Assembly (NCBI GenBank): GCA_021789095.1
Contig: JAJYJX010000146.1
Coordinates: 1-5,475 of the forward strand
Direction: 5' to 3'
Length of the DNA stretch: 5,475 nt
Origin: a bacterium
Lineage (GTDB): Bacteria; JAMCPX01
Made by a program: the position numbers and the translations under genes. The notes below the pieces were generated by a model, which was not told the DNA's origin, did no database searches, and was given only the letters and a program-made list of their open reading frames with translations. Of the stretch, positions 2,184-5,475 are shown piece by piece. Numbering within the stretch: the first letter of the stretch is position 1; each line of letters opens with the position of its first letter.

Positions 2184-3176
2184 TCACTCCTTTTCTACGG
2201 GGATGTCTACGGCCTTCATTTTATCCCTGAACTCATCTTCATACTCTTCATAGGTATGGACCTTGACAGGATAATTCCACGGATTGATATGTCTTATCAT
2301 GCGGTTATTGTTTGCAAGATTTCTTGTAGGACTGAGAAAAACTCCGCCCATATGCATTAGTTTACTGAACGGGAAATATGCAAACAGTGTGGCGATTAAC
2401 ATAATATGTATATAAAATATACTGCCAATATCGGCAGAAACCTGCGGGTTAAAACTTACCAATCCCATGACCAGTTCTTTAACACTGATAAGATTCACCC
2501 GGAAAAAATACCTCATGAGTATCCCTGAGATACCTATTCCCAGGATTAAAAACAAGGGGAAGTAATCAGAGATGAGCGAAATATAACGGAACTGGGGTAT
2601 GAGCACCCTTCTTATAAACAGGTAAGACACAGATGCGAGCAATACTACATCTGTTATATACAACGGTGGTACGCCTATTTGTAAAAAGGCATCAAGATTA
2701 TTAAGCAGGGTAATAAGGTATGGAACAGGCTCTGTAAACAGTCTTAAGTGTCTTATAAGAATGATAAGGAACGACCAGTGGAACGCAAGCCCGGCAAGCC
2801 ATAACCATTTATCAGATCCATAAGCGAGGGATGGACCTTCCCGAAGTTCGGTCTTTGTATTTCTTAACAATGACCGGAAAAAAAGTATCTCGAGAGACAT
2901 CCTGCCTATTACACCGAGTGTACTTGAGGGATTATCAAGCTTATTTTGCTTGATCCACGGCAGGGATTTTTCCTGGCCGCAGGTTGTTGGTATGCGGAAA
3001 GGTACAGGCGAGCCTGCCCATTTCAGTACCCGGTAAACAAAACCGGTAATAAATATACCGACAGCGGCATACGGTATAATAACGCCGAAAACATAATATA
3101 AACTTGCATACCTTATACCTGCATAAGCAATTATAACAAGTAATAATACTGTGATGAAAGAAAATAAAAGCTTCAT
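2184..3176 (-). CDS. dsrM: DsrM, di-haem cytochrome b membrane subunit of DsrMKJOP
   Basis: A 330-residue integral membrane protein of the NarI-like cytochrome b type, expected to exchange electrons with the menaquinone pool and pass them to DsrK. About six membrane segments can be read (roughly residues 3-20, 28-50, 124-146, 172-192, 203-222 and 250-271). Histidines H133 and H143 (FHWSFLIILIRHL) are 10 residues apart, and H257 and H275 (YIHIMLIATLF then LMHMG) are 18 apart. These are the same spacings as the four haem ligands of E. coli NarI (His56/66 and His187/205), so two haems b are predicted. The extra N-terminal membrane pair before the NarI-like core is normal for DsrM. The charged C-terminal tail is probably cytoplasmic, next to DsrK. 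The ATG start has GTGAGG 10 bases upstream. The gene follows the RsbRD_N-like gene after 12 bases and is 2 bases from dsrK. Confidence 0.95.
   Translation of the reverse strand: MKLLFSFITVLLLVIIAYAGIRYASLYYVFGVIIPYAAVGIFITGFVYRVLKWAGSPVPFRIPTTCGQEKSLPWIKQNKLDNPSSTLGVIGRMSLEILFFRSLLRNTKTELREGPSLAYGSDKWLWLAGLAFHWSFLIILIRHLRLFTEPVPYLITLLNNLDAFLQIGVPPLYITDVVLLASVSYLFIRRVLIPQFRYISLISDYFPLFLILGIGISGILMRYFFRVNLISVKELVMGLVSFNPQVSADIGSIFYIHIMLIATLFAYFPFSKLMHMGGVFLSPTRNLANNNRMIRHINPWNYPVKVHTYEEYEDEFRDKMKAVDIPVEKE
2187..2194 (-). promoter_or_regulatory. Shine-Dalgarno site deciding the dsrK start
   Basis: AAAAGGAG on the minus strand, 5 bases before the ATG at 2181. It lies at the last codons of dsrM (Glu-Lys-Glu-stop), so ribosomes finishing dsrM stop next to the dsrK start. 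Confidence 0.75.
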
Positions 3177-3188
3177 GTATCATGAACC

Positions 3189-3749
3189 TCACTTCATATT
3201 TTCGGCACGCGTATCATTTTTTATAACCGCAGCCTCTTCATCTGCGATATCCGATATGAGGTTTGCCTTTTCAAGTAACCTGAAGGCCATATTTTTAAAC
3301 TCTTTTACCTTTAACCCGTAGACCTTCTCCCTGTATTTCATATAGCTTTCAAATGCGACAAGCGCCATGTTATCTATCCTGGACTCCAGGAGTAACAGCT
3401 CTTCATACATGCTGTTTTCCTGGAGTTCCTTTTGAAGTTCTTCCCTCAACACCTTCTTTAGGGAGAACAAAAAGCCGATTGCCTGTGAAGGTGTAAAATC
3501 CTGAACAGCTCTTATCCTTACAATCCTATCAAGAAAGTCGAGTGCCCTTTTATTTGCCTCATCACGTACGAGTGTGTCAAATATAGCTTCCATACCTTGA
3601 GATATTGTATAACCCACAGGATTAGCAAACGGATCTTTTTGATCTTTAAAAAAGGTTGAAGCGTTGACAGAATAAGTTTCCATGATCAAACTGGCCCCTC
3701 TTCGCAGAATATCGGCCTTCTTCCTCAATACAATATCTTCTATGTTCAC
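3189..3749 (-). CDS. small RsbRD_N-domain protein inside the dsr operon
   Basis: A 186-residue, mostly helical, soluble protein with no signal peptide, membrane segment or cysteine. The segment around residues 40-62 (DPFANPVGYTISQGMEAIFD) matches what I know of the RsbRD_N family, the N-terminal sensory domain of RsbR/RsbD-type stressosome proteins. Here the domain takes up almost the whole protein and no STAS output domain follows; the last 60 or so residues look like charged helices. I know of no proven biochemical role. Its place between dsrC and dsrM, 12 bases before dsrM, suggests a job linked to the DsrC/DsrMKJOP system, perhaps assembly, regulation or protein interaction; this is inference. 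The GTG start at 3749 is well supported by AAGGAG 6 bases upstream (3756-3761). The family call is from recall of the motif and is moderately sure; that the gene is real is close to certain. Confidence 0.8.
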   Translation of the reverse strand: MNIEDIVLRKKADILRRGASLIMETYSVNASTFFKDQKDPFANPVGYTISQGMEAIFDTLVRDEANKRALDFLDRIVRIRAVQDFTPSQAIGFLFSLKKVLREELQKELQENSMYEELLLLESRIDNMALVAFESYMKYREKVYGLKVKEFKNMAFRLLEKANLISDIADEEAAVIKNDTRAENMK

Positions 3750-3837
3750 ACTATGCTCCTTATCCTTTCAGGCATGCTCAATGAGCGCCAACGACGTTTC
3801 GATAAACAGATTTTTGTATATATCTGCTCTCTGTGAA
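3750..3837 (-). other. dsrC to RsbRD_N-gene intergenic gap with a weak hairpin
   Basis: An 88-base gap, the longest in the window. Just after the dsrC stop, on the minus strand, AGCAGAT (3822-3828) can pair with ATCTGTT (3805-3811) across a 10-base A-rich loop, giving 7 pairs including one G-U. There is no clean run of T after it, so it does not look like an efficient intrinsic terminator. It might partly stop transcription or protect the 3' end of a dsrC message. The gap ends with the AAGGAG site of the next gene. Confidence 0.3.
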
Positions 3838-4155
3838 TTATACACACCCGGTCGGCTTTGGCAGTCCTGCAATTTTGCACGCACCTTTTGCAGGTCCGCT
3901 TGGGAATAATTCGTACATGTGCTTGAGATCTACCTGTGTATCTTTACACATCTTTCTAATCATCGGAGCTATGTTGTATTTCAAATAGTACTCACGAAGA
4001 TATTTAACAACCTTCCAGTGCTCTTCCGTCATATTCGGCACATCTTCTGTTGAAGCAAGAGCCTCTGCTACTTTCTCATTCCACACATTGGGATCCTGAA
4101 TGAACCCATCTTCATCAATCTCTATCTCTACACCACCCAGATTTACCTTTGCCAT
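3838..4155 (-). CDS. dsrC: DsrC, sulfur carrier / substrate protein of sulfite reduction
   Basis: A 105-residue cytoplasmic protein of the DsrC/TusE family. The C-terminal arm ends GPAKGACKIAGLPKPTGCV, with both conserved cysteines: C93 and the penultimate C104, ten residues apart. Having both marks a true DsrC rather than TusE or another family member, which keep only the penultimate one. In sulfite reduction the arm enters DsrAB and leaves with a trisulfide bridging the two cysteines; the DsrMKJOP complex (through DsrK) is the proposed reductant. The N-terminal part (MAKVNLGGVEIEIDEDGFI) and the length are typical of the family. The start is certain: CAAAGGAGG (4161-4169) lies 5 bases before the ATG. 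The gene follows dsrN after 56 bases and precedes the RsbRD_N-like gene by 88 bases, so it may be transcribed partly on its own. Confidence 0.98.
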   Translation of the reverse strand: MAKVNLGGVEIEIDEDGFIQDPNVWNEKVAEALASTEDVPNMTEEHWKVVKYLREYYLKYNIAPMIRKMCKDTQVDLKHMYELFPSGPAKGACKIAGLPKPTGCV

Positions 4156-4211: not shown

Positions 4212-5475
4212 TTAGCCGAGTCCAAACCTTAGGCAATCGTATTGCCTGCTTTTGTCTGCTTCGGATCTTGAATACCTTTTCCTGCGAACCGCGTATGCCC
4301 CTGCACTACGGACCATATTTTCTGCCCATTGCGGTGTTCCTGCCGCATGTACATGTGAATAGACAGCCAGCAGGTTTTTGTAACATATACCGTCCTCTGT
4401 TTTATTAAAACCGTAACCTTTTTGTACTTTAAAAATAAAGGTAAGTTTACCTTGATCAACATCCACGGCCCTTGAATAATGGAACTCATGACCGTGAACG
4501 ATACTGGAAAGCTCAAAGTAAGGATTCCCGTGCTTGACCTCCAATATAGTGTATCCGTGCCCCTGGGGATGCCTGTCAAAATCAAATCCGACCGGCAATA
4601 CGTTTGTCATAGGGTATGTTATGCCTCTGTACGTCAGTGATCTACCCATATAAATCGCACCGCCGCATTCTGCATACACCGGCAGTCCTTCTTCAACTGC
4701 CTTCTTGATAGATATCCTGAAACTCTTGTTGTCTGCGAGCGCCCTGGCATTGGTTTCAGGAAAACCTCCGCCTATGTAAAGGGCATCGATATCAGGCAGC
4801 GAAGGATCCTTCAGTGCATTGATCTCTACTATTCTTGCACCAAGGGCCATGAGTGCCTCAATGTTATCGGGATAATAAAAAGAAAACGCTGGATCCCTTA
4901 TGATACCTATATTCACATTTCTCAAAGTATCATATTTATGTGTATGCACGTTTTGTTTCTTCATAGACATCTGCCCTGCACGGCTTGCCAGTAAAATAAG
5001 TTTATCAACATCAATGCAATTCTTTATAATATCTGCTGCGTAGGTTATTGCTCTATTAACCCCGGTGTATTCCTGGGGGGTAATCAATCCAAGATGCCTT
5101 TCTGGAAACATGGATGGTTCAAGTTTTGGGATCGCACCTATTACAGGAATGCCGCATATACCTTCGATTGATGAACGTGCTATCTGCTCATGCCGTTTGC
5201 CTGCAATTCTGTTCAGTATTATTCCCTCTATATGTACATCTGCATCAAGCCTCTGGCACCCTAGGACTTCTGCGGCAAGTGTTCTTGTTGCCTTGGTACT
5301 GTCCAGTACCAGAATAACAGGTGATTTCAGCAGCTTGGCAAGTTCCGCAGTACTGTATGTTCCGTTTTCATCCATGCCGTCAAATATGCCTCTGTTGCCT
5401 TCGATTAAAGCGACCCTTTTTTTAGCAAACCCTTTCAGTCGGTCGCAATCCGCACATGAAGAGTCATCACAAAAT
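4212..5475 (-). CDS. dsrN: DsrN, CobB/CbiA-type siroheme amidase (5' end missing)
   Basis: The frame is open to the right edge, giving 420 visible codons; the P-loop start of the protein lies outside. This family makes ATP- and glutamine-dependent amides of tetrapyrrole carboxylates (cobyrinate a,c-diamide synthase). Visible motifs are EGNRGIFDG (25-33 of the visible part) and STAELAKLL just after it in the amidoligase domain, then a class I glutamine amidotransferase domain from about residue 190. That domain contains YIGGGFPE (233-240), AECGG with the nucleophile C270 (codon 4665-4667), GHEFHYS (328-334) and YSHVHA with H374/H376, the likely catalytic histidine region. The dsr-cluster homologue, DsrN, is proposed to convert siroheme to siroheme amide for DsrAB. 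The position directly before dsrC favours DsrN over a cobalamin enzyme, though sequence alone does not exclude the latter. The C-terminal 30 or so residues after the last motif are basic and look family-atypical. Confidence 0.82.
   Translation of the reverse strand, partial: FCDDSSCADCDRLKGFAKKRVALIEGNRGIFDGMDENGTYSTAELAKLLKSPVILVLDSTKATRTLAAEVLGCQRLDADVHIEGIILNRIAGKRHEQIARSSIEGICGIPVIGAIPKLEPSMFPERHLGLITPQEYTGVNRAITYAADIIKNCIDVDKLILLASRAGQMSMKKQNVHTHKYDTLRNVNIGIIRDPAFSFYYPDNIEALMALGARIVEINALKDPSLPDIDALYIGGGFPETNARALADNKSFRISIKKAVEEGLPVYAECGGAIYMGRSLTYRGITYPMTNVLPVGFDFDRHPQGHGYTILEVKHGNPYFELSSIVHGHEFHYSRAVDVDQGKLTFIFKVQKGYGFNKTEDGICYKNLLAVYSHVHAAGTPQWAENMVRSAGAYAVRRKRYSRSEADKSRQYDCLRFGLG

Follow-up and report, generated by a model that had tools for sequence, protein, structure and literature searches.

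The open reading frame at positions 3189–3749 (minus strand) of the window, the whole stretch of 5475 nucleotides analysed here, is dsrT, an already named gene. This analysis adds an explicit fold and domain boundary, shows that the gene is linked to the MKJOP module, and makes a stressosome route less likely for this host. Sulfate respiration is a major part of the sulfur cycle, and its last electron step is fed by DsrMKJOP. DsrT is encoded alongside this complex in nearly all cases, and its role has only been guessed. We propose that DsrT is a dedicated post-translational accessory factor of DsrMKJOP, a reading that we consider about evenly balanced between right and wrong. The module linkage, the position at the head of the operon, and the lack of a recognisable stressosome kinase in the host narrow the question to whether DsrT binds DsrMKJOP.

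Identity of the gene and its neighbours

The dsrT product has 186 residues, read from a GTG start, and comprises an RsbRD_N domain (residues 4–106), a helix (residues 115–161), and a variable tail. A strong AAGGAG ribosome binding site, read from the sequence (3756–3761, minus strand), lies 6 nt from the start codon, and 12 nt (3177–3188) separate the dsrT stop codon from the ATG of dsrM, as the preliminary description had stated. All neighbouring genes lie on the same minus strand. Downstream are dsrM (2184–3176; NF038037, 546 bits), dsrK (565–2187; NF045796, 754 bits), and dsrJ (162–581; NF038038, 177 bits). dsrC (3838–4155; PF04358, TIGR03342), whose product ends in KPTGCV, is located 88 nt upstream of dsrT. 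The order in the window is thus dsrC-dsrT-dsrM-dsrK-dsrJ, with DsrM, DsrK, DsrJ, and the DsrC-family protein assigned by NCBIfam. A dsrN-like gene of the cobyrinate a,c-diamide synthase type (4212–5475), named from its position and the literature, is truncated at the window edge; in tblastn searches, matches to it were found beside dsrC in many related loci. The gap between dsrC and dsrT gave no signal of RNA structure (z 0.25), and promoter and terminator patterns were at chance level.

Identity of the window DsrC to its counterparts is approximately 58–72% for Zixibacteria-, Ignavibacteria-, and Acidobacteria-type loci. For those Nitrospirota-type loci that have the closest DsrT, it is just 41–52%. 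This contrast in identity hints that the window cluster may be of mixed ancestry.

The name dsrT rests on three matched loci, from GWF2-44-13 (L009), CG1-02-44-142 (L011), and GWB2-47-37 (L023), in which the homologue occupies the same place between dsrC and dsrM. These are genomes for which dsrT is listed between dsrC and dsrM in Table 2 of PMC5812927. With the window protein as the query, these named-DsrT loci were matched at 2e-51, 4e-50, and 4e-42, respectively. The window protein therefore shares with the named DsrT of dsrTMKJOP operons the position, the family, and the genomes of the published table, and differs only in lineage-specific substitutions: Gly for Trp at residue 18, Glu for Asp at 134, and Tyr for Cys at 139. 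The Gly codon at residue 18 (3696–3698), in place of a near-invariant Trp, is likewise present in the window's nearest relatives.

The gene had been singled out in the preliminary description as a candidate for an undescribed component, a claim that does not stand, since dsrT is already named in PMC5812927, PMC10504309, PMC11406059, and PMC13047784. Its function is given as unknown in PMC11406059, whereas PMC10504309 and PMC13047784 suggest, from homology, that it may regulate dsrMKJOP or its expression. For C. tepidum, Holkenbrink 2011, as cited in PMC6018796 and PMC8359478, is the source for a requirement for DsrT in sulfide oxidation. Full-text searching of an incomplete literature collection brought up no paper that mentions both RsbRD and dsrC, so the domain identity of DsrT seems to be rarely discussed.

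Domain, predicted fold, and the stressosome

RsbRD_N (PF14361) is the single Pfam domain of the window protein, matched over residues 4–106 with 60.5 bits (cut-off, 24.3 bits) and an E-value of 2.9e-16, and no STAS or other second domain was detected by Pfam. The earlier assignment as a stressosome-type sensory domain without STAS is thereby borne out. This protein is also the sole PF14361 match in the host genome. It lacks Cys and His as well as any transmembrane-like stretch. The lack of cysteine, also noted earlier, holds for the window protein but is no family trait: Cys139 is present in 98 of the 154 aligned rows, and Tyr takes its place in all own-phylum relatives compared. No alignment column has His in more than 27 of 154 rows. 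Haem or metal binding through His or Cys was rejected for the window DsrT, which has neither residue, and a conserved Cys acting as a redox partner of DsrC would not be essential, given the Tyr of the own-phylum relatives.

AlphaFold2, run with 57 homologues, predicted an all-helical structure (mean pLDDT 91) with a 47-residue helix at residues 115–161 and a weakly predicted tail. In structure comparisons, the model matched 3pmc (Z 12.3), 3pmd (Z 11.2), and the RsbR N-domain 2bnl (Z 11.2), followed by Listeria RsbR 7b0u (Z 9.2 over 144 residues of the model). Many globins and phycobiliproteins scored just below the best matches (Z 9–10), and for an all-helical model Z values of 11–12 are about the level that unrelated helical bundles can reach. 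Foldseek alone was weak, with no E-value below 0.3, and sequence searches found no significant match among solved relatives. Since the structural matches coincide with the RsbRD_N sequence match, a sensible reading of the model is that DsrT is an RsbR-N-type non-haem globin. The closest structural matches, 3pmc and 3pmd, are solo globin-like sensor-domain proteins and, like DsrT, have no output domain. However, their PDB titles describe sporulation inhibitors, their identity to DsrT is 10%, and they are not companions of a respiratory complex.

Aligned with the full-length RsbR proteins of the surveyed genomes, DsrT covers the sensor and the linker helix and stops approximately where STAS starts. 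It shares with the RsbRD/RsbR N-domain the RsbRD_N match, the predicted non-haem globin-like fold, and the Y-x3-R-E motif of the linker helix. It differs in that STAS is missing, the host yielded no RsbT partner, and dsr linkage is near-obligate, and it forms a high-scoring subfamily of its own; the other RsbRD_N proteins inspected from the surveyed genomes contain STAS and reach 29–35 bits with the DsrT model.

In a set of 82 sequences drawn independently of the search patterns, the most conserved positions in Desulfobacterota and the Moorella phylum are W18, N43-P44, A81, Q83, P87, K98, F133, D/N134, Y136, R140, E141, and E150, of which Q83, P87, R140, E141, and E150 are also kept in the Chlorobi-type set. 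R80, Q83, F85, P87, K98, Y136, R140, and E141 are found in some stressosome RsbR proteins as well, and the shared conserved residues therefore probably serve the fold or the linker. VQDFTPSQ seemed invariant among the first 72 loci, but this proved to be an artefact of the search patterns; in the unbiased set, Q83 and P87 are strongly conserved, while D84, F85, T86, and Q89 vary.

The RsbRD_N homology and the RsbR-like fold could be taken to mean that DsrT belongs to a stressosome and signals via RsbS, RsbT, and partner switching. Yet DsrT has no STAS domain with which to enter the core, and no RsbT-type kinase above the cut-off was found in the 92% complete host genome, where the one HATPase_c_2 match, in a 492-aa frame, is below the cut-off. 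For these two reasons this route is highly improbable. Moreover, the genomes with a real stressosome (L098, L099, L190, and L192) carry a separate full-length RsbR with STAS, and DsrT ends approximately where STAS starts in these proteins.

Linkage to DsrMKJOP and the proposed role of DsrT

A first scan of 84,980 species genomes yielded 72 homologue loci, 68 of which hold dsrM in the same stretch. The homologue is directly upstream of dsrM in 67 of these 68; the exception, from Moorella, has the order T-K-J-O-P-M, and the remaining four contigs stop just past the homologue. The group names of the phylum samples derive from the named record of each sample's central genome. The Desulfobacterota sample (the phylum of a Desulfobacterales bacterium; 247 genomes) has 113 genomes with both DsrT and DsrM, 4 with DsrM only, 4 with DsrT only, and 126 with neither, i.e., DsrT in 113 of 117 DsrM genomes (Fisher p about 1e-59, a value that ignores shared ancestry). 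The genes are adjacent, on one strand, and with dsrT first in 109 pairs. All 25 DsrM genomes of the Moorella phylum (249 genomes) have DsrT; of two further matches there, one is a contig fragment and the other an RsbR-STAS protein. In the small phylum of the window itself, DsrT is present in 6/6 genomes with DsrM over the cut-off.

Nitrospirota contains two types of loci. DsrT is encoded directly upstream of dsrM in 20/20 canonical DsrM loci, 17 of which have a recognised dsrC upstream, but in 0/20 of the low-scoring divergent DsrMK loci, which apparently lack JOP, neither DsrO nor DsrP being recognised there. In genome G1040, where a locus of each type is present, DsrT accompanies the canonical one alone. 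DsrT is therefore linked to the five-subunit MKJOP module and not to DsrMK alone. The divergent loci (L197–L216) comprise dsrC with divergent dsrM and dsrK; no DsrE, DsrF, DsrH, or DsrL was recognised among the ORFs tested there, and in L199 a Rieske-type protein directly follows dsrK.

The survey of solo RsbRD_N genes next to dsrM thus revealed a tight linkage and supports the dedicated link to DsrMKJOP suggested in the preliminary description. The possible restriction of the gene to reductive-type clusters, a question also raised there, is borne out if the MKJOP module is what is considered; published work, however, places DsrT in sulfur-oxidising Chlorobi as well (PMC10504309). DsrT was found in 16/16 fetched loci of the Ignavibacteriaceae-centred sample, mostly in a divergent form (41–93 bits) and upstream of dsrM; most of these loci are presumably Chlorobi. 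PMC10504309 argues that the DsrT of Chlorobi was acquired, together with MKJOP, from a sulfate reducer, which fits a protein that follows the five-subunit module. DsrT is reported to be absent from Pseudomonadota (PMC11406059).

Of the 23 fetched loci of the Moorella phylum showing dsrT, 6 have the order T-M-K-J-O-P and 17 the order T-K-J-O-P-M (18 including Moorella): dsrT remains first in the operon, beside dsrK, where dsrM has shifted to the last place. The permuted loci are L110, L112, L113, L115, L116, L118–L122, L125–L130, and L132, together with L028.

DsrT follows the five-subunit complex and stays with it through rearrangement, and on these grounds a direct partnership is the reading that we prefer. 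DsrT would be a soluble cytoplasmic protein with an all-helical, non-haem globin-like fold. It would descend from the sensor and linker-helix half of RsbR(D) after loss of the STAS half and, independently of any stressosome, would serve DsrMKJOP as a dedicated accessory factor. It would bind the cytoplasmic face of the complex (DsrK/DsrM, near the DsrC site) through a conserved patch and/or the exposed linker helix, and would act post-translationally as an assembly or activity-tuning partner. It may also sense a small hydrophobic or sulfur-related ligand. We infer the binding, the partner subunit, the sensing, and the post-translational mode alike. Only tentatively do we go further and suggest that a stressosome sensor shed its output domain and turned into a near-obligate partner of the terminal DsrC-trisulfide reductase, one that senses signals and serves allosterically or in assembly; we lean somewhat against this version, which, if true, would place a built-in sensor on the last step of sulfate respiration. 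No such mode of action has been described for RsbRD_N proteins in the literature searched.

The first place in the operon, held even with dsrM at the end, would also suit an operon regulator. DsrT might regulate dsrMKJOP expression by a stressosome-independent route. Upon a signal it could, for instance, bind and titrate a transcription factor or a regulator at the RNA level, like solo sensor-domain proteins of other systems, in line with the homology-based proposals cited above and with 3pmc and 3pmd, which are solo sensor-domain regulators. Nevertheless, DsrT lacks any domain for DNA binding or output, the loci showed no recognisable conserved regulator gene between dsrT and the adjoining genes, and the presence of DsrT depends on the type of MKJOP complex rather than on the host. 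Expression control is thus unlikely, although it deserves consideration.

Genomes without dsrT and with additional copies

The exceptions in Desulfobacterota bear on whether DsrT is a constant part of the complex. The DsrM-only genomes comprise one partial contig and three genomes (G051, G088, and G250; loci L093, L094, and L095) with the order dsrC-dsrM2K2-dsrM-K-J, in which the place of dsrT between dsrC and dsrM is taken by an extra dsrMK pair, and no dsrT is detectable. Since these genomes have dsrMKJ, DsrT cannot be strictly indispensable. Of the four DsrT-only cases, one is a contig end, one a short fragment, and one a true stressosome RsbR; the fourth is a genome that has a T-K-C contig beside a T-M contig on which dsrM is cut off.

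The near one-to-one co-occurrence, the gene order, the T-K-C and T-M contigs of that genome, and the position of dsrT beside dsrK in the permuted operons are also consistent with DsrT as a constant sixth structural or DsrC-docking subunit of DsrMKJOP, without sensing. On the other hand, no report of DsrT as a subunit of purified DsrMKJOP was found in the literature searched, DsrT is missing from a few genomes with dsrMKJ, and it is expressed below most other sulfur genes in one organism (PMC13047784). We regard a constant subunit as quite improbable, and an accessory partner remains our preferred reading.

Gene fusions of dsrT with dsrM or dsrK were sought, and none were found; the 475-aa frame of L037 appears to be a long upstream open stretch. 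Genome G025 (L102 and L103) has two dsrT copies, one before dsrK-dsrC and the other before dsrM.
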